Of a stretch of 64,000 bases of DNA, positions 38,554 through 57,486 are shown in pieces (position 1 is the first letter of the stretch; every line of letters starts with the position of its first letter). The notes beneath the pieces are model-generated. The model worked only from the letters and a program-made list of their open reading frames with translations, had not been told where the DNA came from and ran no database searches. Made by a program: the position numbers and the translations under genes. The DNA is taken from NCBI GenBank assembly GCA_947501445.1, contig CANMVS010000006.1, forward strand, positions 62,001 to 126,000. The letters run 5' to 3'. This DNA is from an uncultured Rhizobiaceae group bacterium (GTDB taxonomy: Bacteria; Pseudomonadota; Alphaproteobacteria; Rhizobiales; Rhizobiaceae).

Positions 38554-38573
38554 TTCATTCGTATACAAATGAA
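38554..38573. promoter_or_regulatory. GTATAC-centred operator at the hyuA promoter
   Basis: TTCATTCGTATACAAATGAA is a 20-bp palindrome with a single mismatched pair, extended by A/T on both sides, located 21 bp before the hyuA ATG. It matches the sites at 40939, 50016 and 57467. Confidence 0.7.
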
Positions 38574-38591
38574 TTATTTTCCGCTGAAAAG

Positions 38592-39383
38592 TCAATCCAC
38601 CTTGATCACGGCTGAAGCCGTTACCGGCTTGTCATCCACCACATAGGCGCGATGGTCGTTGGTGTTCAATGTGACGCGAACAATATGTTCGCCCGGTGGC
38701 AAGGTACCAATCGTCGCAACGGGATCATAGAGGCGGCCAATTTTTAGTCCGCCCACATACAGATGCGCGTGTCCGGTACCGGGAACATGGGGTCCATCAA
38801 CCAGCGCTTTATCGAAAACAAACTGTTGGGTATTAACAATAATTTTCCAGCCCGCCGCGCCCTTGATCGGCTCAACATCAAGTGAAATTTGCGGGATCGG
38901 CTCTCCCTCGCCAACTGTGCAGATATCACCCATGCCATACAGGCCGGCATGCCGGGAATGGTCGGCGAGCTTTTTGGGGGTCAACAGCGCTTTGGCATTT
39001 ACAACACCCGCCTGATCAAAGTGAAGCTGCACCGGCAACAATCGGCCATCAGCTATTTCACCCTTGATACCGGATAAAATAATATGCGCACCATCACTTG
39101 CCAGTGATGACTTGCCGGTTGCGGGAAGCGGGATTCCCATGGCGGATTCCGGACTATAAAGGGTTGCATTGTCGGCAACCTGCGATGAAACGGAGAGCAA
39201 CCTGTCAGCCCTGCCGCGATTTTCAATTGTCAGGAACACGCGAACCGTGCCACTTTCATTTTCCGCACGCGCTGCCTGAGCATTTGAAATCAGCACGTCA
39301 TACGACCTGTTTTCACCTGACCACAGCCACCACGATCCGGCACCGATGACCAATACAGCAAGAACCAGCAGCAAACGTTTCAA
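38592..39383 (-). CDS. PCuAC-like copper chaperone domain protein with degenerate metal site
   Basis: 263 residues: signal anchor (about 3-20), then a domain resembling periplasmic PCuAC copper chaperones (VRVFLTIENRGRADRLLSVSS; DGAHIILSGIKGEI), then a second beta-rich domain of about 110 residues with several histidines (HAGLYGMG; GPHVPGTGHAHLYVGG). In canonical PCuAC the metal ligands follow H/M-x10-M-x21-H-x-M; here the final H-x-M is HII and the first position appears to be N. Copper binding by the first domain is therefore doubtful; the histidine-rich second domain may bind instead. TTG start with GAGGTG upstream. Divergent from the 482-residue membrane protein. Confidence 0.7.
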   Translation of the reverse strand: MKRLLLVLAVLVIGAGSWWLWSGENRSYDVLISNAQAARAENESGTVRVFLTIENRGRADRLLSVSSQVADNATLYSPESAMGIPLPATGKSSLASDGAHIILSGIKGEIADGRLLPVQLHFDQAGVVNAKALLTPKKLADHSRHAGLYGMGDICTVGEGEPIPQISLDVEPIKGAAGWKIIVNTQQFVFDKALVDGPHVPGTGHAHLYVGGLKIGRLYDPVATIGTLPPGEHIVRVTLNTNDHRAYVVDDKPVTASAVIKVD

Positions 39384-39448
39384 AGAGCACCTCGCGAAAA
39401 CCCAACCCTGCAGGCCTTTTTCAATTTCAGTGTGATATTTGACCGACT

Positions 39449-40897
39449 ATGCATAAACCGCCCTACACCAGCAAGCCTGCCGGCATCCGACCGGGTAATC
39501 CCATTTTGCAACCGGTATTGTTTTTCTGCCTGTGCGTCGGTGCATATTTTGGTGGCGAGGCTTTTGCACATACATCCGAGCAGGTTTTTGTCCTGTTGCT
39601 ACCAACCAGGCTCTACACACTTTCCGGTGTTGCCGCAGTGGCACTGACCGTCGTGGTGATGGGGCTTCTACCGGCGCAATCCATATTGTCCGGGTTTCGC
39701 AGTGTTGGGTTGCCAGGTTTCAAATCACGAAGCCTGCCGACGATAACCAGCCTGCTAAGCCTGTTGCTGCTTGGTTTTGTGGTCTTCGTCGGACTTTATG
39801 GTCCCAGAGACCCTTTCTCCAACAGTCTGACACTGACCATCTGGACCCTTTGGTGGATCGGGTTTTTGACCATACAGGCACTTTTTGGCGATCTGTGGCG
39901 GCTGATCAACCCATGGACGGGGCTGTATCGCCTCCTGATAGGACAGCAACACCGAAATGGTCTGTTCAGCCTGCCGCAAATTTTGGGCCTGTGGCCGGGT
40001 ATTGTTGCATTCTGCCTGTTTGCCGCTTTCATGCTGGCCGACATTGCCCCGGATGACCCGGCACGACTTGCGCGTCTCACGATGGCTTACTGGGTCTATA
40101 CATTTGTTGGCATGATCCTATTTGGCGGCAAAACCTGGTTGGCGCGCGGTGAGTGTTTTACGATTCTCCTGCGATATTTTTCAATGGTATCCGCGTTCAA
40201 AAAAACCGGTAAGTCGGTGCGCGCGGGCATGCCAGGATGGCAGTTGGTTCATCCTTCAAAGCACACAGTGACGGGCGGCATCTTTGTGCTGATCATTCTT
40301 GCCGTTGGCAGCTTTGACGGACTGAATGAAACATTCTGGTGGCTGGCCCATCTTGGCATCAACCCGTTGGAATTTCCCGGCCGTTCCGCTGTGGTTTTTC
40401 CAACAATAGTGGGTCTGATTGGCGCCATCATTATCGTTACAGCGCTGTTTGCGACAACAATTGCACTTGGAAATTCATTCGCCGGTAATCGGGTATCACT
40501 GGGTGAAGCCTTTGGACGTTTTTCCCTTTCCGTCCTGCCGATTACAGTGGGCTATCACATTGCCCATTACCTCACGACCATACTGGTCAATTGGCAATAT
40601 GCACTTGCGGCTGCGACGGATCCCTGGGCAACCGGCGCCGACCATCTCGGCCTGGACACATTCTATGTCACCACCGGTTTCTTCAGCAATTATGACACGG
40701 TCAGGATTATCTGGCTCATTCAGGCAGGCGCGGTTGTTGCCGGGCATATACTGGCAATCTGCGTTTCCCATGCTATCGCCATTGACCTCTATAAAGACAC
40801 CCGGAAGGCAGCATTCAGCCAAATTCCACCTGCCCTGTTCATGGTTGCCTATACGCTCTTTGGTCTGTGGCTTCTTGCTGCGCCGAGAGGTGCGTGA
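39449..40897 (+). CDS. Polytopic membrane protein of unknown function
   Basis: 482 residues with about 12 predicted helices. Landmarks: signal-like start ending AFAHTSEQVFVLLLPTRLY, WRLINPWTGLYRLL, AYWVYTFVGMILFGGKTWL, GYHIAHYLTTILVNWQYAL and FYVTTGFFSNYDTVRIIWL. Similar proteins are, as I recall, labelled fenitrothion hydrolase in databases after a pesticide-degrading Burkholderia protein; that name says little about native role. A conserved histidine pair (GYHIAHYL) in a membrane helix could bind a metal, and the neighbour is copper-chaperone-like, so a metal-related role is an inference. Only 65 bp separate the divergent starts. Confidence 0.7.
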   Translation: MHKPPYTSKPAGIRPGNPILQPVLFFCLCVGAYFGGEAFAHTSEQVFVLLLPTRLYTLSGVAAVALTVVVMGLLPAQSILSGFRSVGLPGFKSRSLPTITSLLSLLLLGFVVFVGLYGPRDPFSNSLTLTIWTLWWIGFLTIQALFGDLWRLINPWTGLYRLLIGQQHRNGLFSLPQILGLWPGIVAFCLFAAFMLADIAPDDPARLARLTMAYWVYTFVGMILFGGKTWLARGECFTILLRYFSMVSAFKKTGKSVRAGMPGWQLVHPSKHTVTGGIFVLIILAVGSFDGLNETFWWLAHLGINPLEFPGRSAVVFPTIVGLIGAIIIVTALFATTIALGNSFAGNRVSLGEAFGRFSLSVLPITVGYHIAHYLTTILVNWQYALAAATDPWATGADHLGLDTFYVTTGFFSNYDTVRIIWLIQAGAVVAGHILAICVSHAIAIDLYKDTRKAAFSQIPPALFMVAYTLFGLWLLAAPRGA

Positions 40898-40938
40898 AGA
40901 TCATTGATGGAATAGGGCGAATAAAATCCTCTGGACAA

Positions 40939-40958
40939 ATTGTTTGTATGCGAACAAA
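40939..40958. promoter_or_regulatory. GTATRC-centred operator before the ABC transporter operon
   Basis: ATTGTTTGTATGCGAACAAA is an imperfect version of the shared palindrome (GTATGC core, TTGTTT/GAACAA arms), 52 bp before the binding-protein ATG. Confidence 0.6.
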
Positions 40959-41010
40959 CTGACTGTAACGCCACAGGAAAAAGCGGCCCAATTTAAAAAG
41001 GGGAATTGAA

Positions 41011-42315
41011 ATGGCAGACAAAGGGAAAAAACCGGGACTGGAAACAAGACGTAGCGTGATTACCAAGCTGGCGATTGGGGCAGGAACACTTGCCGGTGCC
41101 AGCGCCATGCCTGGATTTATGCGCTATAGTCAGGCACAAACTTCCGAACCGATCAAAATTGGCTTTCAGGTTCACCGCACAGGCATCGGCGCCGCCTATG
41201 GTCGCTGGTACGACAGGACAACAGCTGCTGCCGTGGCACGCATCAATGACATGGGCGGCATCGGTGGTCGTCCGGTTGAAATCATCATGGAAGATGACGG
41301 TACGGATCCGAAGCGCGGCGCGGAGGTTCTGGAAAAATTTGCCCGCCAGCACAAATGTGACGTGGCCTATGGAACGTTGTTCAGTCACGTTGTCATCGGG
41401 TCCGCTCCGACGGCAGGCGAGCTCAAACTACCCTATTTTGTCGTGTCCGAAGGTCACCATGTAGCCAGTGGCGGGCTCAATCGCTATACGCTGCAGCCCG
41501 GCATCACCGATGTGAAGAGCCAGGTCATTTCGATGGCACCATTCGTGGCAAACAACCTCGGCAAAAAGGTCACAATGATCTACCCGGACTTCGCCTTTGG
41601 CCATGATCACCGTGATTTCTTCTCAGCTGCCATCGAAAAACAGGGTGGCCAGGTCATCGAGAAAATTGCCATCCCGCCCAGCGAAACCTCATTCACCAAA
41701 TATTTCCCCAAAATCCCTCGGGACACCGAAGTGCTCTATCATGTGATGGTGGGCCCGGCGGTTTTGACCTTCGTCAAGGAAATGGGTGAGTTTTTTGGCT
41801 CAAACGGACCACAGATATTTGGTTTCATTGACAGCCTGGAAGCAGTGAACATCAACAGTCCCGGCCTGGAATTTCTGGAAGGCAGCTATTTCTGGGAAGG
41901 CAATCCACGCTACGCCCAGAAGGATCAGACCAGTTTTGACAAAGCCTATCGCCAGGCCGTTGGCGTCGACGATACGGGTGCATCCCTGTCTGACCCGGGT
42001 GATGTATCAACCTATGCACACATGTTTGGGTGTTGGGAAACGCTCAACATTATCAAACAGGGCATGGAAGCCTGCAGCTACCGCGACACACGTGACCGGG
42101 CCGCGCTGATAGAGGCTGTGGAGTTGATAACCGATATCCCGGCTTCGGATGATCATCCGCAGGGCGCAAAAATCTTTAACGGCAAGACCCATCAGGTTTT
42201 CGGACATCAGTATATTTCGAAGGTCGAGAACAAGCGACTGGATGTTGTGCATACAACCTCCATAGAAGACGGATTTTATCCGGACGAAACAGACTACACG
42301 AAGCAACCCTTGTAA
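41011..42315 (+). CDS. ABC transporter substrate-binding protein (branched-chain amino acid/urea type)
   Basis: 434 residues, probable Tat signal (LETRRSVITKLAIGAGTLAG, cleavage near AQA at 43-45), then a type I periplasmic-binding fold (IKIGFQVHRTGIGAAYGRW; GIGGRPVEIIMEDDGTDPKRG). First gene of a complete HAAT-type uptake operon. AGGGG stands eight bases before the ATG. The ligand cannot be named from sequence; because the promoter carries the same palindrome as the nicotinate hydroxylase operon, uptake of nicotinate, nicotinamide or a related ring compound is the working inference. Confidence 0.9.
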   Translation: MADKGKKPGLETRRSVITKLAIGAGTLAGASAMPGFMRYSQAQTSEPIKIGFQVHRTGIGAAYGRWYDRTTAAAVARINDMGGIGGRPVEIIMEDDGTDPKRGAEVLEKFARQHKCDVAYGTLFSHVVIGSAPTAGELKLPYFVVSEGHHVASGGLNRYTLQPGITDVKSQVISMAPFVANNLGKKVTMIYPDFAFGHDHRDFFSAAIEKQGGQVIEKIAIPPSETSFTKYFPKIPRDTEVLYHVMVGPAVLTFVKEMGEFFGSNGPQIFGFIDSLEAVNINSPGLEFLEGSYFWEGNPRYAQKDQTSFDKAYRQAVGVDDTGASLSDPGDVSTYAHMFGCWETLNIIKQGMEACSYRDTRDRAALIEAVELITDIPASDDHPQGAKIFNGKTHQVFGHQYISKVENKRLDVVHTTSIEDGFYPDETDYTKQPL

Positions 42316-42323
42316 TTTTGGCA

Positions 42324-42371: not shown

Positions 42372-43298
42372 ATGGAATTTGGACCTTACCTCCTTCTCGC
42401 CAGCCTTGAAGGCGCGCTTATGGCAGCGGTACTGTCACTGACAGCCGTTGGTCTGAGTGTCGTCTTTGGCGTTATGCGCGTCGTCAATGTTGCCCACGGT
42501 GAATTCTTCATGCTGGGCGCCGTGATTGCCTGGTGGATTGCGTCACTGGCAGTCGGGCACCCTGCAATCGGCTTCATACTGGCCATTTTCATTGCACCAG
42601 TCGTCGTCGGGCTGATCGCCTCCCTTTGCGACCTGACCATATTAAAACGCGTTGACTACGACCCTGAACGCACCATTGTTGCCACCATTGGCCTGCTTTA
42701 CATCATTCAACAGGTCACCCTGATGACCTTCGGGCCGGACGCACGGCCCGTACAGCCGCCATTCAACCAGCGTCTCTCACTGCCATGGTTTGAATATGGT
42801 GAAAACGGCTTTCAGATGATCTGGCCCTGGGGGTTGGGAACAACCTCCTACAAATTATTTGTCATTGCCGCGGCAATCGCCATTTTGCTCGGCGTGTGGG
42901 CGATGATGTCACGGACCAAGATCGGTCTGTACATGCGCGCGACCCAACTGGACAAACAAACCGCTCAGGCATTCGGCATCAATGTCGAGCGGGTCTATAT
43001 GCTGGTCTTTGGGTTTGGTGCGGCACTGGCAGCGCTTGGAGCCGTACTGGTGGTCCCCATTCAGCAGGCCCATTATCTGATGGGCGGTGATCCGCTGTTA
43101 TTGTCTTTTATTGTGGTCATCATAGGTGGTCTGGGCAGTCTTGCGGGGACGGTCGTTGCGGCCGTATTGATCGGCATGAGTGATGGCATCATTTCAATGT
43201 TCTTTTCACCGACCCTGGCCAAGATCATTTCCACATTGCTGGTGGCTTTTGTACTGATATTCCGCCCGCAGGGCCTGTTCGGCAAGCGTGCCTCATGA
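42372..43298 (+). CDS. livH: Branched-chain-type ABC transporter permease (LivH)
   Basis: 308 residues, about eight helices, with LivH landmarks GLSVVFGVMRVVNVAHGEFFMLGA near the N-terminus (positions 26-49) and GGLGSLAGTVVAAVLIGMSDG near the end. Forms the membrane channel with LivM. Stop and livM start overlap as ATGA. Confidence 0.92.
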   Translation: MEFGPYLLLASLEGALMAAVLSLTAVGLSVVFGVMRVVNVAHGEFFMLGAVIAWWIASLAVGHPAIGFILAIFIAPVVVGLIASLCDLTILKRVDYDPERTIVATIGLLYIIQQVTLMTFGPDARPVQPPFNQRLSLPWFEYGENGFQMIWPWGLGTTSYKLFVIAAAIAILLGVWAMMSRTKIGLYMRATQLDKQTAQAFGINVERVYMLVFGFGAALAALGAVLVVPIQQAHYLMGGDPLLLSFIVVIIGGLGSLAGTVVAAVLIGMSDGIISMFFSPTLAKIISTLLVAFVLIFRPQGLFGKRAS

Positions 43299-44239
43299 CC
43301 GGTCGCAGCAAGTCAGTTCTATTGCATGTTGCATTGCTGGCGCTTTTGCTGCTGGCTCACTTTATTGTATCGCCGTTTCATCAGGGCAACCTGTCACGCA
43401 TTATGGTTCTGGCTGTCTATGCCATGGGCTATAATGTGCTGTTTGGCTATACCGGCCTTTTGAGCCTGGGTCATGCATTGTTTTTTGCGGCAGGCATGTA
43501 TGGCATGGGGCTTGGTATGAAGTTGCTTGGCCTGCCGCCTGCTGCCGCCATCGGGCTTGGTATCGTCTGTGCAGCTTCGCTGTCTGCTGTCGTCGGTGCC
43601 CTTGCCCTGCGCACATCCGGGGTTGCCTTCATGATTGTCACACTGATGCTCGCCCAGGCCGGGTTTTTGACAATTCTTTATTTTGGCACCTATACGCGTG
43701 GTGACGAGGGATTCGTTCTGCAACAGGCAAGCCGCACGATTGCCGGGTTTGACCTCACCGACCCGGCCATACGTTATGGTGCGGCCTTTGCCCTGCTTGC
43801 CCTGTGTGTTCTCGCCATGCTCAGGCTGGTCAATTCATCCTTTGGCCGCGTCCTCATTGCCATTCGCGAAAATGAAGAACGGGCACGCATGCTGGGCTAT
43901 GATGTGTTTCGGCACAAATTATTCGCGGTGATCATATCCGGCACGATTTCAGGTCTGTCAGGGGCTGTTTACGGGTTGCTGTTTGGCTATGTTGGCGCGA
44001 CATTTGCAGCCGTGCAATATTCCATTTTACCACTGTTATGGGTGTTACTCGGCGGCGCAGGTACCATTATCGGGCCATTTGTCGGCACATTGTTCATGTT
44101 CTATCTGATTGATTTTTCCAGTGAAATTACCAGCGCCTATATGGTCATTGCCGGAGTGGTGCTGGTCTTGTTGACGCTATTTGCGCCCCAGGGTCTGGTC
44201 GGCGAAATACGGCGCAGGTATCTGCCATGGCTCCCATGA
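43295..44239 (+). CDS. livM: Branched-chain-type ABC transporter permease (LivM)
   Basis: 314 residues with the LivM landmarks YTGLLSLGHALFFAAGMYG and RVLIAIRENEERARMLGYD, the latter being the coupling-helix region that contacts the ATPases, and LGGAGTIIGPFVGT. Overlaps livH by 4 bp and livG by 13 bp. Confidence 0.92.
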   Translation: MTGRSKSVLLHVALLALLLLAHFIVSPFHQGNLSRIMVLAVYAMGYNVLFGYTGLLSLGHALFFAAGMYGMGLGMKLLGLPPAAAIGLGIVCAASLSAVVGALALRTSGVAFMIVTLMLAQAGFLTILYFGTYTRGDEGFVLQQASRTIAGFDLTDPAIRYGAAFALLALCVLAMLRLVNSSFGRVLIAIRENEERARMLGYDVFRHKLFAVIISGTISGLSGAVYGLLFGYVGATFAAVQYSILPLLWVLLGGAGTIIGPFVGTLFMFYLIDFSSEITSAYMVIAGVVLVLLTLFAPQGLVGEIRRRYLPWLP

Positions 44240-44955
44240 ATTTGCTTGAAACAGATGGCCTGTCAAAGTCCTTCGGCGGATTGCGTGCTGTTGAAAACGT
44301 CAGTTTTGCTTTGCCGCAAGGGCAGATACGGGCCCTTATTGGTCCCAATGGTGCGGGCAAAAGCACATTTGTCGGGCTCCTATGCGGTCGTCTTCAGGCG
44401 ACCACGGGCACCGTTCGTTTTCTGGGAAAAGATGTAAGCGGGCTACCCGCCCACAAGCGCATTTCACAGGGCATGGCCTATACATTTCAGATCACGTCGG
44501 TCTTTGGCCGCCTCAGTCTGTTTGAAAATGTCGCGTTGGCTGCAAGGCGGCGACTGGGTGATGCCCATGAGGCTGTTGAGCAGGAAGTTATTGACGCATT
44601 GCAGCGGGTCGGGCTTGCAGAGCGCAATGACCAGATCGCGCAGGACCTGAGTTACGGCCACCAAAGGCTCCTTGAGATCGCCATGGGCATCGCCCAACGA
44701 CCCAAACTGCTGATTCTGGATGAACCAACCCAGGGACTTGCGGATAAGGAAATCGATCAGTTCAATGATCTGGTACGGGCGCTCAGTGCCGATACGACCA
44801 TATTGCTGATTGAGCACAATATGAATGTTGTAATGGAAACTGCCGACTATATCACAGTGCTTGACTTTGGTGAGGTGCTTGCAGAGGGCGTGCCACAGGA
44901 AATCAGGATGAACAAAGCTGTTCAGGCCGCTTATCTGGGAACAGCCGATGCTTGA
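44227..44955 (+). CDS. livG: Branched-chain-type ABC transporter ATP-binding protein (LivG)
   Basis: 242 residues. Walker A GPNGAGKST, Q-loop region TFQITSVFGRLSLFENVAL, signature LSYGHQRLLEIAMGIA, Walker B LLILDEPTQGL, H-loop LLIEHNMN. AGGT lies upstream of the ATG at 44227; an ATG three codons later is an alternative. Overlaps livF by 8 bp. Confidence 0.93.
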   Translation: MAPMNLLETDGLSKSFGGLRAVENVSFALPQGQIRALIGPNGAGKSTFVGLLCGRLQATTGTVRFLGKDVSGLPAHKRISQGMAYTFQITSVFGRLSLFENVALAARRRLGDAHEAVEQEVIDALQRVGLAERNDQIAQDLSYGHQRLLEIAMGIAQRPKLLILDEPTQGLADKEIDQFNDLVRALSADTTILLIEHNMNVVMETADYITVLDFGEVLAEGVPQEIRMNKAVQAAYLGTADA

Positions 44956-45643
44956 GTTGAACCAGATCAATTCCGGTTACGGCGCGGCGCAGGTCCTGCG
45001 CGACGTCTCACTGGACGTAAAGGCCGGAGAAATTCTGTGTCTGCTTGGCCGAAATGGCGCTGGCAAGACAACAACGATGAAGACAATCATGGGCCTTCTG
45101 CCGCTATCGGCTGGGTCTATTGTGCTCGATGGTGAAGACGTCAGCAGGCTCCCGGCCCATGAAGTCCCCAAACGCGGCATTGGTTATATTCCGCAGGGAC
45201 GACGCCTGTTTTCTGAAATGACGGTGGCGGAAAACATCGAAATCGGACTGCTTACCCGTGGTGCATCCCCGGCCGTGCGGGAACGCGTTCTTGCGCTTTT
45301 TCCAAGGCTGCGCGAAAGGCTTGATCAACGGGCCGAGACCCTGTCAGGTGGTGAGCAACAGATGCTGGCAACAGCACGGGCGCTTTGTATTGAACCCCGG
45401 GTGCTTTTGCTTGATGAACCGACAGAGGGACTTCAGCCCTCGATGATCGAACTGATACGCAATGTGGTGGTTCGTTTGAAAGAAGAAGGTGTGGCCATAT
45501 TGCTGGTTGAACAGCGCATCGATGCCGTGCTGAAGATTGCCGACCGGGTGGCCTTTTTGGAAAATGGCCGCATACGCGCCGTTGTGGATGCAGTAACTCT
45601 GGCTGATGATCACACATTGATGGAGCGATATGTCGGCGTTTGA
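44948..45643 (+). CDS. livF: Branched-chain-type ABC transporter ATP-binding protein (LivF)
   Basis: 231 residues. Walker A GRNGAGKTTTMKTI, signature LSGGEQQMLATARAL, Walker B VLLLDEPTEGL, H-loop LLVEQRID. The RGIGYIPQGRRLFSEMTVAENI segment is typical of LivF. Last gene of the transporter operon, convergent with the autotransporter gene 70 bp away. Confidence 0.93.
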   Translation: MLELNQINSGYGAAQVLRDVSLDVKAGEILCLLGRNGAGKTTTMKTIMGLLPLSAGSIVLDGEDVSRLPAHEVPKRGIGYIPQGRRLFSEMTVAENIEIGLLTRGASPAVRERVLALFPRLRERLDQRAETLSGGEQQMLATARALCIEPRVLLLDEPTEGLQPSMIELIRNVVVRLKEEGVAILLVEQRIDAVLKIADRVAFLENGRIRAVVDAVTLADDHTLMERYVGV

Positions 45644-48386: not shown

Positions 48387-48660
48387 CACCGACCTCCCCC
48401 CAATATAGATTATAGAATTAAAATGGATATTCATTTATATATAAAAATATTACTTAATATATAAATCATCTTATTCTACACAGTGCAATAATTTTTGCAA
48501 TTTATTATATATAAAAACGTATTTTTCAACAATATATCGCAAATATGATCTATTTTACAAATTGATAGGTGAAAATATCAAGTATTAATTAGTAAATTGC
48601 ACCAATTAGCGTGTAGAAAAACGTCACAATAACCCAATGGTTCTGTGAGAAATCAAACTG
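48387..48660. promoter_or_regulatory. AT-rich promoter region of the autotransporter gene
   Basis: The stretch 48415-48600 is dominated by A and T with runs such as TTATATATAAAAATATTA and a repeated TGCAATAATTTTTGCAAT. Its composition contrasts sharply with all neighbouring genes. It is the kind of DNA that MucR-type silencers bind in this bacterial order. Confidence 0.6.
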
Positions 48661-50015: not shown

Positions 50016-50035
50016 TCTATTTGTATACTAACGAG
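50016..50035. promoter_or_regulatory. GTATAC-centred operator before the hydroxylase operon
   Basis: TCTATTTGTATACTAACGAG keeps the GTATAC core and one good arm (ATTT) but has a weak second arm. It lies 35 bp before the FAD-subunit start, between that gene and the NicR-like regulator. Confidence 0.6.
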
Positions 50036-50069: not shown

Positions 50070-50933
50070 TTGGACTATTATCGGCCAGAAGGTCTGAATG
50101 ATGCACTCAACTGGCTGGATCGCCATCAGCAGGTTCAGCCACTGATTGCTGCTGGTTGCACTGATCTGTTGGCGTTGACCCGGAACACCGGCCTGACAGG
50201 GTCAACGCTGGATATTACGGCGATATCTGCACTCAGCGGCATTGAAGAACGCACTGACTGCTGGCGTATTGGTGCAACAACCACATGGTCTGAAATCATT
50301 CGCCATGGCCTGCCCGCAGCTTTTGACGGTTTGAAGCTTGCGGCACGTGAAGTTGGATCAATACAGATACAAAACACCGCAACCCTTGCCGGCAATCTGT
50401 GTAATGCATCCCCTGCCGCAGATGGCGTTCCATGCCTGCTTGCTCTGGATGCCATTGTGGAACTGAGCAGCGCACATAGCCAACGCAGCCTGCCCCTGTC
50501 CGAGTTCATTTTGGGCGCGCGCGATACAGCACTGATGCCGGGTGAAATCGTTACCGCGATTTCCGTACCGAAGGCAGCTGCAACCGGGCATTCTGTTTTT
50601 CTCAAGCTGGGTGCGCGAAAATATCTGATCATATCCATCGCCATGGTCGCTGCCGGGATCACGGTTGAATCAGGCATAATCAGCCGTGCCTCCATTGCCG
50701 TTGGTGCCTGCAGCGCAGTGGCACAGCGGCTCGGCAACATTGAACGGATGCTGCTCGGAAAACCACCTGACCTTGGGCTTTTGCATGAAATAACAGACGA
50801 TCTGGTGGCGCTGTCCTTGTCACCGATTGACGATGTCAGAGCTGATACCACCTACCGCTACAAATCTGCGGGTGAACTGGTGCGCCGGGCAGTCGGTCAG
50901 CTGATGCCTGATCAATCGGAGTGCGTTGCATGA
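50070..50933 (+). CDS. FAD-binding subunit of a molybdenum hydroxylase (CoxM/NdhF type)
   Basis: 287 residues of the CO-dehydrogenase-M-type FAD fold. Landmarks: AAGCTDLLAL in place of the usual AGGTDLL, and IQNTATLAGNLCNASPAAD for the second FAD loop; C-terminal CO_deh_flav_C domain (RASIAVGACSAVAQRL). It passes electrons from the 2Fe-2S centres to an external acceptor. Start is TTG with GGGAG upstream. The stop overlaps the next start as ATGA, so the partner subunit is the fused protein downstream. Confidence 0.9.
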   Translation: MDYYRPEGLNDALNWLDRHQQVQPLIAAGCTDLLALTRNTGLTGSTLDITAISALSGIEERTDCWRIGATTTWSEIIRHGLPAAFDGLKLAAREVGSIQIQNTATLAGNLCNASPAADGVPCLLALDAIVELSSAHSQRSLPLSEFILGARDTALMPGEIVTAISVPKAAATGHSVFLKLGARKYLIISIAMVAAGITVESGIISRASIAVGACSAVAQRLGNIERMLLGKPPDLGLLHEITDDLVALSLSPIDDVRADTTYRYKSAGELVRRAVGQLMPDQSECVA

Positions 50934-53695
50934 ACGTTCAAAGTATGCAGATGACAATGCAGGTCAATGGCGAAACGGTTCAACTGCATGCAACGCCCGC
51001 CATGCGCCTCAGCCAGCTATTGCGCAATGAGCTTGGCTTGCGCGGCACAAAAAGCGGCTGCGATGCCGGTGATTGCGGGGCCTGCACAGTGCTTCTGGAT
51101 GGCGCACCCATTTGCGCCTGTCTGACACCGGCAATACAGGCCACGGGCAGAAAAATAACAACGATTGAGACCAGGTCGGAACCGGAACTTGTGCGACTGC
51201 AATCATCATTTCTGCGCCATGGTGCAGCACAATGCGGCATTTGCACTCCTGGCATGTTGATGGCGGCGATGGCGCTTTTGAAAGACAAGCCAACACCCGA
51301 ACGCCAGGAGGTTGAAGATGCCCTTGGTGGGGTCCTGTGCCGTTGCACCGGTTACAGCAAGATCATCGATGCCGTGTGCAACGCACACCAGGATACCCAG
51401 CCGGCAGCCTCGCCTGCCGCTGGCCAGGCCGTTGGACACCGGGTTGAACGTCTGGATGGAGTGGCAAAGGTGGCGGGTACGGAATTATTCGGTGCCGACA
51501 GCTGGCCGGATGGTGCCCTGTTGGTACGGGTAATTCGCGCGCCGCACGACAGGGCACGGTTTGAATTTGGTGATCTGGAAGCCTGGAGAAACAAACACCC
51601 AGGCGTGGCTGTGGTGCTGACAGCGGATGATATTCCGGGAGATAATCGCTTTGGCGTTATCCCGACATTTGCAGAGCAACCGGCCCTTGCCTCGGGAGAG
51701 AGCCGCTTTACTGGCGAGGCTGTAGCGCTCATCGCCGGGGAAGAGCAACAGATTGCAGACATGGATCTTTCCGATTTTCCTGTCGTCTGGGAACCTTTGG
51801 ACGCGTTGAGCGACCCATTGGATGCACTTGAAGCAGATGCGTTTGACGTGCATGCCGACCGCAAGGGCAATATCCTCATTCAGGGCAAAGTGGTGTGCGG
51901 TGATGTAGAAGCCGCCTTGGGTGACGCCAGCCATATTGTCGAAGCGCAAATGCAAACGGGCTATGTGGAACATGCCTATATTGAGCCAGAGGCAGGATGT
52001 GCCTGGCTTGACGGTGATACATTGGTCATCAGGGCCTGCACGCAGGCGCCGCATATGGACCGCGACGACACGGCCAGAATTCTTGACATGCCGCCGGAGA
52101 AAATTCGCATCATACCGGCTGCCGCAGGCGGCGGCTTCGGATCGAAACTCGACGTATCTCTCCAGCCACTTGTCGGGCTTGTCACGCTGAAAACCGGGCG
52201 TCCCGCACGCATGGTCTATAGCCGCCATGAATCCATGCTATCAACCACCAAGCGCCATCCCTCATTGATGAAGGCGGCCCTGGGTGCAGACGCGCTGGGC
52301 AAAGTCGTTGCCATGCGCTTTCATGGAGAATTCAACACGGGAGCCTATGCCAGCTGGGGGCCAACCGTAGCTGTTCGCGTTCCAGTCCATGCTTCCGGCC
52401 CCTATGCGGTGGCGAATTACGCTGCAACGGCCAATGCAGTCCACACCAATGGACCCGTCAGTGGCGCATTTCGCGGTTTCGGAGTGCCCCAGGCAGCCTT
52501 GCTGCAGGAAACGCTCTATGAGGATCTGGCCTATAAAAGCGGTATTGACCGACTGGACCTGCGTCGCATCAACGCAATGAAGGATGGCGATACTTCTGTT
52601 TGCGGACAACATATGCAAGGGGTTGGGATAGCTGAATGTCTCGATGCCCTGGTGCCACACTGGCATGAGGCACTTGAAGACTGCGCACGGTTCAACGCCG
52701 GTTCGCAGGTTCTCAAACGTGGCGTCGGCATTGCCTCCTGCTGGTATGGTTGCGGCAACACGGGCCTGTCCAATCCGTCCACCATTCGCCTTGGCATTAC
52801 CGCTGACGGGCACCTGATGCTGCATCAGGGTGCAACCGACATTGGCCAGGGATCCAATACTGTTATTGCGCAGATATGCGCAGATTCGCTCGGCCTGCCG
52901 CTGAGTGAATTTGAACTCATTGGACCCGACACGGCCTTGACCCCGGACTGCGGCAAAACATCAGCTTCCCGGCAAACCTTTGTTACCGGAAAGGCGGCAC
53001 AAAAGGCCGGACTGGCCCTGCGCGAAAAGATCCTGCGGCAAAGCAACATGGGCAGCGAGGCTGTCCTTGCACTCGATGCACACAATAATTGCGTTACGGT
53101 GACCGATGGCAAGGAGGTGGCAACACTGTCGCTTGCTGCCTTGCCCGTGGACACGAACGGCTATGTTCTGTCAGCGGAAGAGACCTACGACCCGCCGACG
53201 ACGGCGCTGGATGAGAATGGTCAGGGTGTTCCTTATGCGGTTTACGGCTATGGCGCACAGATCGCCATTGTCGAAGTGGACACGGCGCTGGGGCGCGTTT
53301 ACGTCAAACAGATCATTGCCGCCCATGACCTTGGTCGGGTGATCAATCCATTGCTGGCAGAAGGCCAGGTTGAGGGCGGCATAGCGCAGGGGCTCGGCAT
53401 GGCGCTGATGGAAGAATATATTCCGGGCCGCACCGCCAATCTGCACGATTATCTCATTCCCACCATGGGTGACATGCCTTCGATAAAGACAATATTTGTC
53501 GAAAAAACCGATCCCGAGGGACCGGTTGGCGCCAAGGGGTTGGGAGAACATGTTCTCATTCCCACGGCACCAGCTATATTAAATGCCATTCGCCATGCCT
53601 GTGGCGCGCGCATAACCCGCCTGCCCGCTTTGCCTCATCGGGTACTGGCTGCGATTTCTGCACACAGGCAAGACATGCAGGAGGCCTCGCAATGA
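50930..53695 (+). CDS. Fused 2Fe-2S and molybdopterin subunit of a xanthine-dehydrogenase-family hydroxylase (probable nicotinate dehydrogenase)
   Basis: 921 residues. Residues 1-160 are a small subunit: plant-type 2Fe-2S ligands C44, C49, C52, C64 and a second cluster in QCGICTPGM and LCRCTGY. From about 175 the molybdopterin domains follow, with AYIEPEAG, GGGFGSKLD, GAFRGFGVPQ and the base-providing glutamate in GAKGLGEHVL. Hydroxylates an aromatic N-heterocycle at the carbon next to nitrogen using water. Co-location with nicotinamidase, a NicR-like regulator and 6-hydroxynicotinate reductase points to nicotinate to 6-hydroxynicotinate. Start at 50930 (ATGA overlap, GGAG upstream). Confidence 0.88.
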   Translation: MNVQSMQMTMQVNGETVQLHATPAMRLSQLLRNELGLRGTKSGCDAGDCGACTVLLDGAPICACLTPAIQATGRKITTIETRSEPELVRLQSSFLRHGAAQCGICTPGMLMAAMALLKDKPTPERQEVEDALGGVLCRCTGYSKIIDAVCNAHQDTQPAASPAAGQAVGHRVERLDGVAKVAGTELFGADSWPDGALLVRVIRAPHDRARFEFGDLEAWRNKHPGVAVVLTADDIPGDNRFGVIPTFAEQPALASGESRFTGEAVALIAGEEQQIADMDLSDFPVVWEPLDALSDPLDALEADAFDVHADRKGNILIQGKVVCGDVEAALGDASHIVEAQMQTGYVEHAYIEPEAGCAWLDGDTLVIRACTQAPHMDRDDTARILDMPPEKIRIIPAAAGGGFGSKLDVSLQPLVGLVTLKTGRPARMVYSRHESMLSTTKRHPSLMKAALGADALGKVVAMRFHGEFNTGAYASWGPTVAVRVPVHASGPYAVANYAATANAVHTNGPVSGAFRGFGVPQAALLQETLYEDLAYKSGIDRLDLRRINAMKDGDTSVCGQHMQGVGIAECLDALVPHWHEALEDCARFNAGSQVLKRGVGIASCWYGCGNTGLSNPSTIRLGITADGHLMLHQGATDIGQGSNTVIAQICADSLGLPLSEFELIGPDTALTPDCGKTSASRQTFVTGKAAQKAGLALREKILRQSNMGSEAVLALDAHNNCVTVTDGKEVATLSLAALPVDTNGYVLSAEETYDPPTTALDENGQGVPYAVYGYGAQIAIVEVDTALGRVYVKQIIAAHDLGRVINPLLAEGQVEGGIAQGLGMALMEEYIPGRTANLHDYLIPTMGDMPSIKTIFVEKTDPEGPVGAKGLGEHVLIPTAPAILNAIRHACGARITRLPALPHRVLAAISAHRQDMQEASQ

Positions 53696-55164
53696 GCGTA
53701 ACGGCCGATGCCAAAGGCGAAAAGCTGCGATGCGATGCCTGCCCGGTCATGTGCTATGTGGCGCCAGGTCGCACCGGCGCCTGTGACCGATATGCCAATG
53801 ACGGTGAGCGCATTATTCGCTGTGATCCCCTCACCATATTCGACAACAGAATTGCCAGCGGTGGCCCGATAAAACCATTTGTCAAATCGCAATGGGACGG
53901 CAGTCTGATTGATGACGGCGACATGCAGGTCACCGCTGTGGGGTCCGGCACCACCTATCCGGACTATAAGCCTGCGCCTTTCATTGTCAGCCGTGCCGTT
54001 GACGGCGTTGATTTCATCACCGTTGTTTCCGAGGCGATATTTTCCTATTGCGGGGTTAAAATCAAAATCGACACAGACAGACACCTTGGTCGCGAAGGCG
54101 CCATCGTGCGGTGCGAAGGCGAAGCCGTTGGTCTGGTCATTACAAGCGAATATGGCTCGCAGATGCTGTCGCTGGGCGGGGTGGATCATCTGACCGGTGG
54201 CTCAAAATCGGAGGGCCGGATTACCTGCAAGGCATTGATGGATCTGTGCAACAAGTTGCCGGTTGAACTGGTGATTGATGGTGGCTCAAAAGTGGTTGTT
54301 CAGGCCGGCAAAGCACCGATTGTTGACGATAAAAAGGAACATAGAATGCGGGTCGGTTGCGGGTCTGCCACCATCGGCATGTTTGCCTCACAATGGCATG
54401 GTCTTGTCGACGAAGTTGTGGTCGTCGATGACCATATTACCGGCGTGGTTTCTGAACATCAGGCAGGCAAGGTTCTGGGGTGGCCCGACACCGGGATTAA
54501 AATACGCGGGCGGCGCTCCACACCCGGACGTTATTTTCAGGTTGCTGATCCCGGCCTTGGCTGGGGCGGCACAAACATCGAGGACCCACTGCTGATCCTT
54601 GGTCCCTGGAATGCCAAAAAGGGTGCCCGTCCCGGACTGACCTTGTTGATGGTTTCCACCACGGGCGAACAATACGCCTACTATATATTGGACGATGATC
54701 TGGTACCGCGCGCCCATCCCGTGCCGCAGTCCCTGCGACCAAGCGTGCAGCTCATCGCAGAAAACTGCGAGCCATCCCTATGTACGGTCCTGTTTGTCGG
54801 TGGCGCTGGCGGTTCTCTGCGCTCCGGTGTAACCAAAAACCCTGTCAGACTGACACAATCTGTGCAGTCTTTGACCACGTCCATTACCTGTGGCGGCGCG
54901 CCTGCCTATGTGTGGCCGGGTGGTGGTATCACCATCATGGTTGATGTCATGCGTACACCGGACAATTCATTCGGGTATGTGCCCACACCGGCAATCGTCG
55001 CACCGATCGAATTTACCGTGACACAGGAAGAATACCAAACCCTGGGCGGGCATGTTGCGGCGGCCCGGCCTTTGCATAATATTCTCATGGACGGCGGCGA
55101 ATATGGTGCTGATTTCCGCACCATTGCCAATCCTTCCACGTTAACCGCCCCGGAACAGGATTGA
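53692..55164 (+). CDS. hnr: 6-hydroxynicotinate reductase
   Basis: 490 residues, with an N-terminal Fe-S motif C14-x2-C17-x3-C21-x9-C31 (RCDACPVMCYVAPGRTGAC). It resembles the ferredoxin-dependent 6-hydroxynicotinate reductase of Eubacterium barkeri, which yields 6-oxo-1,4,5,6-tetrahydronicotinate. The same reduction was described for nicotinate catabolism in Azorhizobium, so the enzyme fits a rhizobial relative. Overlaps the hydroxylase gene by 4 bp and precedes UPF0280 by 1 bp. The name is by recognition of the family; activity is not proven here. Confidence 0.82.
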   Translation: MSVTADAKGEKLRCDACPVMCYVAPGRTGACDRYANDGERIIRCDPLTIFDNRIASGGPIKPFVKSQWDGSLIDDGDMQVTAVGSGTTYPDYKPAPFIVSRAVDGVDFITVVSEAIFSYCGVKIKIDTDRHLGREGAIVRCEGEAVGLVITSEYGSQMLSLGGVDHLTGGSKSEGRITCKALMDLCNKLPVELVIDGGSKVVVQAGKAPIVDDKKEHRMRVGCGSATIGMFASQWHGLVDEVVVVDDHITGVVSEHQAGKVLGWPDTGIKIRGRRSTPGRYFQVADPGLGWGGTNIEDPLLILGPWNAKKGARPGLTLLMVSTTGEQYAYYILDDDLVPRAHPVPQSLRPSVQLIAENCEPSLCTVLFVGGAGGSLRSGVTKNPVRLTQSVQSLTTSITCGGAPAYVWPGGGITIMVDVMRTPDNSFGYVPTPAIVAPIEFTVTQEEYQTLGGHVAAARPLHNILMDGGEYGADFRTIANPSTLTAPEQD

Positions 55165-55165
55165 T

Positions 55166-56017
55166 ATGCAAAGCGCTGCTGCCGCGATGCTGCCGGATGG
55201 CAAACGGCTGCATCTGCATCACGGACCAATTGATTTGATTGTCGAGGCCTTTGGTGCTGATCCAACGCATGCCTATCAGCGTGCACACGACCGGTTTTCC
55301 ACGGTTCTTGATGAACTCGTTGCTGAACTCGAAACCTTGAGAGAACCGGTTGATAGCAAGCAAGTATTTAGTGGCGCAATAGCGGGTCGAATGCAAATGA
55401 GTGCATCTCAATTCCTGCCGCAGTTCATCACCCCGATGGCATGTGTGGCAGGTGCCGTCGCCGATACCATACTGGCGGTGCTTGTCGATGGACAGTCATT
55501 CAGCAAAGCCTATGTCAACAATGGCGGCGATGTGGCTTTTTTTGTCAATGCGGGAGAACAGATCGAGGCAGCCGTTGCCGCAGAGTTTCCGGCAGGCATC
55601 ACCATCGGTGCGCATACACCCTATCGCGGCATTGCAACATCGGGCTGGCGCGGACGAAGCTATTCGCTTGGTATCGCAGACAGCGTCAGTGTCGTCGCAA
55701 AAAATGCGGCGATGGCAGATGCCGCCGCGACACTCATTGCCAATCATGTCGATTTGCCAAATCACCCGGGTATCACCCGAACGCCTGCTCAGGATCTGTC
55801 GCCCGACAGTGATCTGGGCGCGCGTCCGGTCACCACGGATGTCGGACCATTAACCGCCGATGAAACAGCACAAGCGCTCGACCGTGGCACAGAATATGCC
55901 CAGATGCTGGTTGAAACCGGCAAAATCGGCGCGGCAATTTTGACACTCAATCATCAATCGCGACAGACTGGCGATCAATTCAAAACCCTTGAACAACAAG
56001 CGAGACCTCATGCCTGA
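55166..56017 (+). CDS. UPF0280 family protein (ApbE superfamily)
   Basis: 283 residues of the UPF0280/COG2122 family, distantly related to the flavin transferase ApbE. Landmarks: RLHLHHGPIDLIVEAFG, TPMACVAGAVADTIL, KAYVNNGGDVAFF, GIATSGWRGRSYSLGIAD. The AGAVAD and NNGGDVA segments correspond to ApbE-like flavin- or metal-binding loops. It is tightly coupled to the reductase gene and overlaps the DUF1185 gene by 8 bp. A role in cofactor delivery to, or function alongside, the reductase is an inference. Confidence 0.88.
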   Translation: MQSAAAAMLPDGKRLHLHHGPIDLIVEAFGADPTHAYQRAHDRFSTVLDELVAELETLREPVDSKQVFSGAIAGRMQMSASQFLPQFITPMACVAGAVADTILAVLVDGQSFSKAYVNNGGDVAFFVNAGEQIEAAVAAEFPAGITIGAHTPYRGIATSGWRGRSYSLGIADSVSVVAKNAAMADAAATLIANHVDLPNHPGITRTPAQDLSPDSDLGARPVTTDVGPLTADETAQALDRGTEYAQMLVETGKIGAAILTLNHQSRQTGDQFKTLEQQARPHA

Positions 56018-56591
56018 ATTCAAGCTGCGAAAAACAATGATAATTCTGGAAGAAACACTGCACGACAACGGCCCCACTGCCCATAAGCCGCGTCAAAAGG
56101 CAGCCATAATGGCCCTGGTGAACAATCCCTTTGCCGGCGGCTATCATGGCGATCTGGAAAGTGCGATGGATGACCTGAAACCGCTCGGCATGCTGATGAC
56201 AGACAAATTGATTGCTGCAATGGGCGGCATCGACGGCATAGATGGCTTCGGCAAGGGTGCCATTGTCGGTGAGGCCGGAGAGTTGGAGCATGGTGCGCTC
56301 TGGCATGTTCCAGGCGGCTACGCCATGCGTGAGCGGTTGGGCGATTCAAAAGCCATCGTGCCATCATGCAAGAAATCAGGCGGTGTTGGCACCCGTCTGG
56401 ACATTCCGCTCGGCCACATCAACGCCGCTTATGTACGCAGCCATTTCGACGGCATTGAAGTTGGCCTGGCAGATGGCCCGCGCGCCGACGAAATTCTCTT
56501 CGTGCTGGCGATGAGCAAGGGCCCGCGTATTCACAATCGCATGGGCGGTCTTGCTGCGACGGATGTCAAAGGTGAAGACGGACTGCGTTAA
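56010..56591 (+). CDS. DUF1185 (amino acid synthesis) family protein
   Basis: 193 residues from ATG 56010 (MPEFKLRKTMIILEETLHD). DUF1185/AA_synth family: KAAIMALVNNPFAGGYHGDL, GKGAIVGEAGELEHGALWH, SCKKSGGVGTRLDIPLGH, DGPRADEILFVLAMSKGPR. The Pfam name rests on a weak historic assignment, so function is unknown. Last gene of the hydroxylase-reductase operon. The conserved glutamate/histidine pair (GELEHGA) and lysines would suit an enzyme acting on a ring-derived intermediate. Confidence 0.87.
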   Translation: MPEFKLRKTMIILEETLHDNGPTAHKPRQKAAIMALVNNPFAGGYHGDLESAMDDLKPLGMLMTDKLIAAMGGIDGIDGFGKGAIVGEAGELEHGALWHVPGGYAMRERLGDSKAIVPSCKKSGGVGTRLDIPLGHINAAYVRSHFDGIEVGLADGPRADEILFVLAMSKGPRIHNRMGGLAATDVKGEDGLR

Positions 56592-56597
56592 TCTACG

Positions 56598-57446
56598 TCA
56601 ATCGACGAAAGCACGCTCAACGACATAGGATGAGGGGCGGTTGTTCGCACCCTCGTCAAACCCGCGTGCATCCAGTATTTCCTTCAGGTCGGTCAACATT
56701 GCCTTTGATCCGCACAGCATGATCCTGTCCGATTGCGGATCAAAGCCGTCAATCCCCATGGCGGAGAAAAAGGACCCGTCTTCGATCAGTTGGGTGATGC
56801 GGCCTTTATTGGGACTGTCTTCCTGTGTTGTCGACGTAAAATGAAACAGCTTGCCCGTTGTGAGTTCACCGACAAGGGGGTCGTTTTGCGTGCGGTCCAT
56901 AAGATCAAAACCGTATTGCAGTTCTGCAGCGGTCCGGCATGTATGGGTCACAATAATGCTATCAAATTTCTCATAGGTCTCCGGGTCACGGATGATCGAG
57001 GCAAATGGTGCAATGCCGGTGCCGGTTGAAAGCAAAAACAGCCGCTTTCCTGGTGACAACGCATCAAGGACCAGCGTGCCGGTTGATTTTTTTCGCATCA
57101 ATACCGTGTCACCAGGTTGGATTTTCTGCAAATGCTCGGTCAGCGGACCACCTTCAACCTTGATCGAATAGAATTCAATTTCCTCATCCCATGCGGGACT
57201 TGCTATTGAATAGGCCCTGAACACCGGTTTGGTGCTTCCAGGAAGCCCGATCATGACAAACTCCCCGGACCTGAAACGGAAACTGCGTGGTCTGGTTATC
57301 CTGAAGCGAAACAGCCAATCGGTAAAATGCTCAACCGAGACAACCTTCTCGGCGAACACATTATCGGGCAGCGTATAGGCCTGTTGTTCCACTACCGCGT
57401 CAAGCGTGACGGTTTGCTGTGTCTGTGCAAAACCCTGATTTTCCAT
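56598..57446 (-). CDS. fpr: Ferredoxin-NADP+ reductase
   Basis: 282 residues. FAD-binding domain with RAYSIASPAWDEEIEFYSIKV (around residue 80) and NADP-binding domain with LLSTGTGIAPFASII and IVTHTCRT; ends with the aromatic-containing tail YVVERAFVD seen in bacterial class FNRs. About 25 residues precede the usual FNR start. It is convergent with the reductase operon by 6 bp but has its own promoter bearing the perfect GTATAC palindrome, so it probably supplies low-potential electrons to 6-hydroxynicotinate reductase. A housekeeping role is the alternative. Confidence 0.92.
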   Translation of the reverse strand: MENQGFAQTQQTVTLDAVVEQQAYTLPDNVFAEKVVSVEHFTDWLFRFRITRPRSFRFRSGEFVMIGLPGSTKPVFRAYSIASPAWDEEIEFYSIKVEGGPLTEHLQKIQPGDTVLMRKKSTGTLVLDALSPGKRLFLLSTGTGIAPFASIIRDPETYEKFDSIIVTHTCRTAAELQYGFDLMDRTQNDPLVGELTTGKLFHFTSTTQEDSPNKGRITQLIEDGSFFSAMGIDGFDPQSDRIMLCGSKAMLTDLKEILDARGFDEGANNRPSSYVVERAFVD

Positions 57447-57466
57447 CAGCCAATTCCTTCAGAATA

Positions 57467-57486
57467 TTTGTTTGTATACAAACAAA
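57467..57486. promoter_or_regulatory. Perfect GTATAC-centred operator before fpr
   Basis: TTTGTTTGTATACAAACAAA is a perfect 20-bp palindrome (22 bp with flanking A/T), 21 bp upstream of the fpr ATG. It is the best example of the motif also found at hyuA, the ABC operon and the hydroxylase operon. Confidence 0.75.

Follow-up and report, generated by a model that had tools for sequence, protein, structure and literature searches.

A candidate MarR operator shared by four units of a predicted reductive nicotinate pathway in a Rhizobiaceae bacterium, with HyuAB as a probable stand-in for enamidase

The window, a stretch of 64,000 nucleotides from an uncultured Rhizobiaceae bacterium, contains a set of genes that may be read as a pathway for nicotinate breakdown. 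On the forward strand, the FAD subunit of a molybdenum hydroxylase, a proposed nicotinate 6-hydroxylase (50070–50933; Pfam FAD_binding_5), is followed by a fused 2Fe-2S and molybdopterin subunit (50921–53695; Pfam Fer2, Fer2_2, and MoCoBD_1/2) and by a predicted 6-hydroxynicotinate reductase (HNR; 53692–55164). HNR has no Pfam or NCBIfam match and is named from the annotation of its plasmid orthologs, together with a conserved CxxCxxxC...C pattern. Among the 20 plasmid orthologs listed (26 matched), 13 are annotated as 6-hydroxynicotinate reductase and three as hypothetical protein, and four have no annotated gene. With regard to homology to the E. barkeri HNR, a value of 42% has been given for the SG-6C homolog (PMC3511419). 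Two further forward-strand genes encode a UPF0280 protein with the fold of the flavin transferase ApbE (55166–56017; NCBIfam PRK04334 and PDB matches) and an AA_synth protein (55989–56591; Pfam PF06684, DUF1185). On the reverse strand, fpr (56598–57446) encodes a ferredoxin-NADP reductase-like protein with Pfam FAD and NAD binding domains, which scored 131.6 bits against NCBIfam PRK10926, under its cut-off of 390.

Divergent from the hydroxylase operon, a MarR-family regulator is encoded on the reverse strand (49497–49943; reading frame open to 49961), with a PncA-type nicotinamidase downstream on the same strand (48849–49478; NCBIfam PRK11609, 229 bits vs. a cut-off of 174). An ABC transporter operon on the forward strand comprises a binding protein proposed for the uptake of nicotinate or a relative (41011–42315; Pfam Peripla_BP_6), two permeases, and two ATPases (42372–45643; Pfam BPD_transp_2 and ABC_tran, twice each). 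The reverse-strand genes hyuA (36473–38533; reading frame open to 38551; Pfam Hydantoinase_A and Hydant_A_N) and hyuB (34725–36476; Pfam Hydantoinase_B, 518 bits) encode the ATP-binding subunit of a predicted ATP-dependent lactamase and its predicted metal-dependent hydrolytic subunit. A nicotinate-type regulon had been suggested in the first-pass annotation of this DNA, and the nicotinate reading of the cluster is supported by the nicotinamidase adjoining the MarR gene and by the annotation of the HNR orthologs.

Four candidate operators (given without strand) lie upstream of these units: at 38554–38573 before hyuAB, approximately 20 bp from the likely ATG at 38533; at 40939–40958 before the ABC transporter operon; at 50016–50035 between the MarR gene and the hydroxylase operon, where a promoter-like pair, TTGACA-17-CAAAAT, precedes the site and ends at 50016; and at 57467–57486 before fpr. 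Direct inspection of the window letters found all four 20-mers where the first-pass annotation had placed them, and only the one before fpr is fully palindromic. The description of all four as near-identical, GTATAC-centred palindromes needs amending, however. GTATAC is central in three sites (38561, 50023, and 57474), whereas the 40939 site has GTATGC, and self-complementarity is 18, 14, and 10 of 20 at the hyuA, ABC, and hydroxylase sites compared to 20 of 20 at fpr, so the wording was generous. Against the fpr 22-mer (22/22), these three sites match 17, 18, and 17 of 22 positions. The next-best place in the window matches 16/22 (at 48429, an AT-rich autotransporter start), followed by 14. 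By itself, the hexamer GTATAC occurs in the window about as often as chance predicts (3 times vs. 3.2 expected); the long form, with the consensus aTTYRTTtGTATACaAAYRAAt, is above chance.

Both strands of the whole genome (6,823,613 bases) were scanned, allowing up to three mismatches, with a 22-mer in IUPAC code derived from the four sites. This pattern gave 10 + 11 matches on the two strands, compared to 5 + 2 for a reversed control. The 17 places matched are the four window sites and 13 weaker others, one with two mismatches and twelve with three; the best of these outsiders (C3:257528) is directly upstream of a 135-aa open reading frame. Matches at other promoters are few, as expected of the regulon first proposed. 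Since the pattern was built from the sites, the scan within the genome is partly circular, which the cross-genome tests are not. The 40939 site itself has three mismatches, so that the genome scan by itself does not set it apart from the twelve outsiders with as many, and its support comes from other genomes.

Conservation was assessed computationally in a set of 80 loci around HNR orthologs. In loci with the MarR gene, the motif was found upstream of the hydroxylase FAD subunit gene (MoFAD) in 42/54, the ABC binding protein gene in 14/22, fpr in 10/13, and the nicotinamidase gene in 13/19, the last often in the same intergenic region as MoFAD; it also precedes hyuA in 26/30 genomes. Inside operons of these loci the motif is nearly absent (MoCo 0/54, HNR 3/61, ABCp1 0/24), and permuted-matrix controls averaged <0.6. 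The genomes are related, and these counts, like the co-occurrence counts below, are thus not independent trials. In the class-wide sample, only five of the first 20 HyuA loci, three of which belong to genomes without HNR, have a site of at least 16 before hyuA, the window's own included. Before enamidase genes, the site reaches 16 in only 9/31, and none of 16 was found upstream of the enamidase gene in two genomes close to that of the window (L157 and L158). Two poor palindromes among the four sites and the mismatches at 40939 would suit the view that the similarity reflects chance and AT-rich promoter DNA, but the conservation upstream of orthologous units, set against the permuted controls, leads us to reject a chance origin as extremely improbable. 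The motif is conserved where the first-pass annotation required it, and the identification of the four sites as operators of one shared regulon is well supported by these comparisons.

The protein encoded at 49497–49943 (Pfam MarR domain PF01047, 43.8 bits vs. a cut-off of 24.6) is the likely repressor and reader of these operators. The site is present in 53/62 genomes with the MarR gene vs. 0/17 without it; nine of the 62 have no site by the rule used. By a cut of 12 alone, four of the 17 loci without MarR (L063, L085, L089, and L106) would count as site-bearing. L063, the sole hit among the loci without MarR in the gene-by-gene upstream counts (MoFAD 1/12 and HyuA 1/3, in the same region), is AT-rich, and 7.5% of permuted matrices score at least as high there. 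Three loci (L055, L062, and L125) have the site and no MarR gene nearby; the gene lies elsewhere in each genome, and L055 has a true site upstream of fpr. A site of at least 12 precedes the MarR gene in only 7 of the 39 cases in which it lies over 700 bp away from the hydroxylase or in which the search yielded no hydroxylase. In most of these the MarR gene is downstream of other cluster genes on the same strand, so the comparison says little and was given no weight.

Another regulator might read the operators, with the MarR gene merely travelling with the cluster. The MarR protein had been called the only local transcription factor, which holds for the Pfam-scanned open reading frames of 34–64 kb (not every frame there), but not for the rest of the window, where a MucR-family gene (27353–27775) and a response regulator (5182–5901) occur. 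In addition, the recognition sequence of BpsR was still called unclear in 2019 (PMC6837509). The co-occurrence of site and MarR gene, and the MarR genes found elsewhere in the three genomes without a nearby copy, argue against a different reader, which we judge to be quite improbable. Reading of the operators by the local MarR protein, as originally suggested, is well supported by this co-occurrence.

BpsR of Bordetella is a MarR repressor that responds to 6-hydroxynicotinate (PMC6837509). The nearest solved structures to the window protein are 2nnn and BpsR 6pcp/6pco (E 7.9e-23 to 6pcp), and the likeness extends to the family, the nicotinate context, and three of the four 6HNA pocket positions. 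All 57 readable sequences retain the residues equivalent to Tyr15, Arg26, and His32, whereas position 23, His in BpsR, is Phe in the window and Phe in 43, Tyr in 14, and His in none of the 57. With His23 replaced throughout, the earlier label "NicR/BpsR-like" can be kept as BpsR-like, but not in the sense of an exact BpsR. The window protein also differs from BpsR (nicC/nicE) in being linked to the reductive, HNR pathway and in having a proposed recognition motif. In two relatives that have all four residues, Tyr-His-Arg-His (L233 and L235), no such motif appeared within approximately 1.5 kb of flank. NicR of Pseudomonas putida, compared here by description only, is likewise a MarR-type repressor of nicotinate genes according to an excerpt of PMC10269826, and it does not share the pocket residues of BpsR (PMC6837509). 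To name 6-hydroxynicotinate as the inducer is a conjecture drawn from analogy. The altered position 23 would be compatible with nicotinate or the reduced lactam as the true inducer, a lesser but serious possibility, against which stand the three pocket residues kept in all 57 sequences.

The enamidase of Eubacterium barkeri (PDB 2vun), an amidohydrolase that works without ATP, acts on tetrahydro-6-oxonicotinate, the lactam proposed here as the substrate of HyuAB. No enamidase ortholog was matched in the genome of the window at E 1e-10; the query, whose only PDB match was 2vun ENAMIDASE (E 6e-104), gave hits in 18 further genomes at ≥59%. HyuAB has the features that define Hyu/Opl/Cap lactamases, a Hydantoinase A subunit paired with a Hydantoinase B subunit and carrying ATP motifs (DVGGTFTD and DMGGTSTD in HyuA) and metal motifs (GGTHLMDVRF and NTGHWPDTGG in HyuB, with H104, D107, and H129; positions counted by hand). 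It shares these with CapAB and OplAB, which, in the excerpts available, open caprolactam (PMC8453981) and the six-membered delta-valerolactam (PMC11033972), substrates other than the one proposed for HyuAB. It scores below the NCBIfam equivalog cut-offs for caprolactamase CapAB (486.9 and 310.9 bits vs. 1000).

A class-wide sample of 66 HNR genomes contains hyuA in 36, enamidase in 28, neither in two, and both in none. A first, partly selected set of 50 had given 31, 18, one, and none; the overlap of the sets is small, and the class-wide cut-offs were chosen after the results of the first set. Alternatively, HyuAB might do a different job, acting on some other amide or further along the pathway, and the exclusion would then mark two lineages, each with its own pathway version. 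The scores far below the caprolactamase cut-offs mean that the family does not give the substrate, and HyuA also occurs in 11/319 genomes without HNR, which implies another role for some of its members. Genomes with enamidase mostly carry a second AA_synth copy, so the switch changes more than one gene, and the two labels cluster on the HNR tree. On that tree, a quick one with SH-aLRT support only, about five label changes are nevertheless needed by parsimony, and three are forced by starred branches. Moreover, among the genomes close to that of the window, three lack HyuA, and the only two with enamidase both belong to these three (G222 and G230, the latter match containing one in-frame stop), and the genes occur together in neither set. 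We consider a different job for HyuAB unlikely. Given the exclusion, the repeated label changes, and the opening of lactams by related enzymes, HyuAB is most likely an ATP-dependent lactamase that opens tetrahydro-6-oxonicotinate in place of enamidase. No publication proposing this was found in the literature searched. The HNR cluster of SG-6C and Azorhizobium caulinodans has been described in PMC3511419, from whose main text "MarR" and "hydantoin" are absent; no operator is described in the section consulted.

The model of the UPF0280 protein has a mean pLDDT of 93.9, and its 37 PDB matches at E ≤0.001 are all DVU1097 or ApbE/Ftp/FmnB, with moderate TM-scores (0.37–0.71). A CGSAT sequence, considered as a possible flavinylation motif, is largely conserved in HNR; it differs from the ApbE target motif. 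A broader hypothesis, which we hold tentatively and at slightly less than even confidence, is that HyuAB, as an ATP-driven tetrahydro-6-oxonicotinate lactamase, and the ATP-free enamidase (accompanied by a second copy of AA_synth) have replaced one another several times in Alphaproteobacteria, with the same MarR operator in control in many of the genomes, and that UPF0280 acts in the cytosol as an ApbE-type flavin transferase, supplying HNR with its covalent flavin.

We regard it as probable that one local MarR repressor governs four units of a reductive nicotinate pathway in which HyuAB replaces enamidase. We show by computation that the sites exist, are conserved, and accompany the MarR gene, and that hyuA and enamidase exclude each other; binding, inducer, and enzyme reactions are inferred. 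In this proposal, the MarR protein would bind the candidate operators and shut off the four units, and it probably represses its own gene, because a single operator lies between this gene and the hydroxylase. Nicotinate or a relative would be taken up by the ABC transporter, and nicotinamide would be converted to nicotinate by PncA. The molybdenum hydroxylase would then form 6-hydroxynicotinate, which HNR, with Fpr as the likely electron source, would reduce to tetrahydro-6-oxonicotinate. For ring opening, HyuA would activate the lactam with ATP and HyuB would hydrolyse it. An early intermediate, most likely 6-hydroxynicotinate, would fill the pocket of the MarR dimer and release the repressor.

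These results propose a defined operator for a subgroup of BpsR-like regulators and may allow a regulon for the breakdown of vitamin B3 to be recognised in the DNA of many bacteria from soil and sea. They also name a specific candidate enzyme for ring opening in genomes that have HNR but no enamidase, and a proposed substrate for a group of unassigned "hydantoinase" genes. If two enzymes for a single reaction, one free of ATP and the other consuming it, have indeed been exchanged, this would be a clear-cut example of non-homologous gene replacement.

By Pfam and NCBIfam, the cluster comprises hyuA and hyuB (Hydantoinase A and B), a branched-chain-type ABC transporter, a nicotinamidase, a MarR regulator (49497-49943), a molybdenum hydroxylase of two subunits, and an fpr-like reductase. 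The 490-aa product of 53692-55164 had no matches in either database and is named 6-hydroxynicotinate reductase (HNR) after the annotation of plasmid orthologs. These occur in 26 plasmid records; among the 20 listed, 13 are annotated 6-hydroxynicotinate reductase, three are hypothetical, and four lack annotation. Strain SG-6C and Azorhizobium caulinodans have been reported to carry a cluster with such a reductase gene (PMC3511419). MarR had been described as the only local transcription factor, which does not hold over the whole window, as a ROS/MucR-family regulator is also encoded at 27353-27775. A GcvT-fold protein at 59884-61038 is closest to dimethylsulfoniopropionate demethylase (363.5 bits versus a cut-off of 410).

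The first-pass annotation had placed near-identical, GTATAC-centred palindromes before hyuA (38554), the ABC binding protein gene (40939), the hydroxylase operon (50016), and fpr (57467). All four 20-mers were found at these positions, with self-complementarity of 18, 14, 10 and 20 of 20, respectively; the GTATAC centre is present in three, but the site at 40939 has GTATGC. On its own, the hexamer is no more frequent in the window than chance predicts (three observed, 3.2 expected). A 22-mer pattern derived from the four sites was used to scan the whole 6.8 Mb genome on both strands with up to three mismatches, giving 21 matches over both strands versus seven for a reversed control. Besides the four sites, of which that at 40939 itself has three mismatches, stray matches were confined to 13 other places (one with two mismatches, twelve with three), and the long form of the site is rare. 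Because such a within-genome scan is partly circular, the test was moved to other genomes. At 50016, the site occupies the intergenic space of the divergently transcribed MarR and hydroxylase genes and immediately follows a promoter-like pair, which fits a repressor role; such pairs are about as frequent in this region as chance predicts (20 observed versus 16.4 expected). An AT-rich stretch at an autotransporter start (48429-48450) shares 16 of 22 positions with the fpr 22-mer, a resemblance that is probably base composition.

A matrix built from the four sites was applied to upstream regions (-250 to +10) in 80 loci around HNR orthologs, the best 80 of 110 confirmed, all from named records. 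The motif proved to be kept before orthologous units: in loci of genomes with MarR, a score of at least 16 was reached before the hydroxylase FAD gene in 42/54, hyuA in 4/5, the transporter binding protein in 14/22, fpr in 10/13, nicotinamidase in 13/19, and MarR itself in 19/57, several of these genes having one intergenic region in common. Inside operons the counts were 0/54 for the second hydroxylase subunit gene (MoCo), 3/61 for HNR, 3/61 for UPF0280, 1/54 for AA_synth, and 0/24 and 0/20 for transporter genes; some HNR and UPF0280 matches seem to occur where that gene heads its unit. In loci without MarR, the cut-off was reached before the hydroxylase in 1/12 and hyuA in 1/3, both in locus L063, and before no other gene. 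Two hundred column-permuted control matrices gave means of at most 0.48 per row, with single controls up to 20 for the hydroxylase; some permutations correlate with the matrix they were made from, at up to 0.69.

Searching 50 whole genomes also located orthologs of hyuA, in several cases on a different contig from the cluster or a long way from it. Of 30 orthologs retrieved, 26 have a site scoring at least 16 in front (mean for controls 0.5, maximum 13), including L154 (18.2), which is AT-rich and doubtful. Those below the cut-off are L136 (0.8; a genome with no MarR match and a cluster without a site), L143 (11.5), L156 (10.5, SAR116), and L138 (printed 16.0). The consensus of 94 distinct sites, aTTYRTTtGTATACaAAYRAAt, is a description and not a test, as the sites were picked by score. 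In L101, L103, L109 and L112 the centre is changed to GTTTGACAGCAAAC (ACAG) with the GTTTG/CAAAC half-sites kept, which suggests loose reading of the operator centre.

The proposal that MarR is the likely reader gained support from co-occurrence. With a site defined as a score of at least 16 that at most 2% of permuted matrices reach, and MarR counted wherever it lies in the genome, a predicted site is present in 53/62 loci of genomes with MarR and 0/17 without (Fisher p 4e-11 over 79 scorable loci, L114 left out, a value inflated by relatedness). Of the nine exceptions, three score between 13.7 and 15.4 (L082, L099, L103) and five have nothing convincing (L077, L110, L122, L123, L126); in L096, a site scoring 23.1 stands before HNR, outside the genes scored here. 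SAR116 and acidobacterial genomes are among those that lack MarR; near misses in the group without MarR are L063 (18.2, AT-rich), L085 (15.0), L106 (15.0), and L089 (12.5).

The closest solved proteins to this MarR are 2nnn and BpsR. BpsR is reported to bind 6-hydroxynicotinate through Tyr15, His23, Arg26 and His32 (PMC6837509). The window's MarR has the equivalents of Tyr15, Arg26 and His32, whereas position 23 is Phe instead of His. Of 58 sequences, 57 are readable, the window's among them; all of these keep Tyr, Arg and His32, and position 23 holds Phe in 43 and Tyr in 14. The Phe/Tyr form mostly adjoins genes of this cluster (55 MarR loci, family and phylum samples). L233 and L235, two relatives that retain all four BpsR pocket residues, lack the motif within about 1.5 kb and may form a sister subgroup that uses a different operator. 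The mostly kept pocket, the changed position 23, and these two relatives suggest that MarR probably acts like BpsR but in a separate subgroup. By analogy, 6-hydroxynicotinate would be the likeliest inducer, but not the only candidate.

In Eubacterium barkeri, the reduced lactam ring is opened by enamidase. Of the 80 HNR loci, 28 encode an amidohydrolase and eight encode HyuA, with no locus encoding both; 44, many incomplete, have neither. The sole solved match of this amidohydrolase at E 1e-5 is 2vun ENAMIDASE (E 6e-104). Fifty whole genomes, made up of the complete set of 34 from which L047-L080 come plus 16 of the remaining 46, yielded HyuA (at least 58% identity; next best family members 44%) in 31, enamidase (at least 59%) in 18, both in none, and neither in one, a 1.2 Mb SAR116 assembly; a partial amidohydrolase (38%) in genome G212 was left uncounted. 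This set was selected, 15 of the 16 having enamidase in the locus beforehand, and the informative part is the 34: HyuA is present in 31, and two of the remaining three have enamidase (G222, 73%; G230, 59%, its match interrupted by a single in-frame stop). A further sample, class-wide and comprising 385 genomes, was drawn without such selection by ring opener, with cut-offs (E 1e-120, 1e-190, 1e-100) fixed after the 50-genome results. Its 66 HNR genomes comprise 36 with HyuA only (at most 20 kb from HNR in 21), 28 with enamidase only, none with both, and two with neither (assemblies 70% and 86% complete). Among 319 genomes without HNR, HyuA was found in 11 and enamidase in two; these 11 HyuA relatives (E 1e-190 or better) would reflect other substrates or incomplete assemblies. 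The samples overlap slightly (L100 and G588 HNR are identical, and the second sample contains the window's own genome). Enamidase had no match in the window's own genome.

A rapid tree built from 79 HNR proteins (44 HyuA, 35 enamidase; SH-aLRT support only) required five label changes, of which starred branches force three; shuffled labels required about 26. HyuA and HyuB retain ATP and metal motifs, and relatives are reported to open caprolactam (PMC8453981) and delta-valerolactam (PMC11033972) with ATP. Mutual exclusion, label changes, kept motifs, and lactam-opening relatives together make replacement of enamidase by HyuAB the most likely reading, with the reaction an inference. The predicted operator precedes hyuA with a score of at least 16 in five of the first 20 class-sample HyuA loci (window included, three from genomes without HNR), and enamidase in 9/31 (control mean 0.1). 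The operator thus does not stand before every ring opener, but it usually does so in the wider group to which the window belongs.

The HNR of E. barkeri contains a covalent flavin. Adjoining HNR, the UPF0280 protein (55166-56017) has an ApbE flavin-transferase fold: the PDB gave 37 matches at E 0.001 or better, each of them either DVU1097 or an ApbE-type flavin transferase, and the TM-scores were moderate. Fold and analogy make it a candidate for attaching such a flavin to HNR. A second AA_synth copy (about 46% identity) accompanies enamidase: it is in the locus of 16/18 enamidase genomes, 14 having two copies, and the 31 HyuA genomes have two copies in none, one in 23, and none in eight. At L157:4463-5035, this paralog adjoins an enamidase distant from the HNR locus.

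Among the titles and abstract starts listed, some lists being incomplete and most subscription journals lying outside their coverage, no link of hyuAB to nicotinate and no description of this operator were found, and the same scope of UPF0280/ApbE literature gave neither; both may be known elsewhere. MarR orthologs (E 1e-25) occur in 82/199 genomes of the window's family and are absent at that threshold from G085 and G164, the two other genomes of its genus. Given this patchy distribution, the cluster looks like an accessory trait within that genus.
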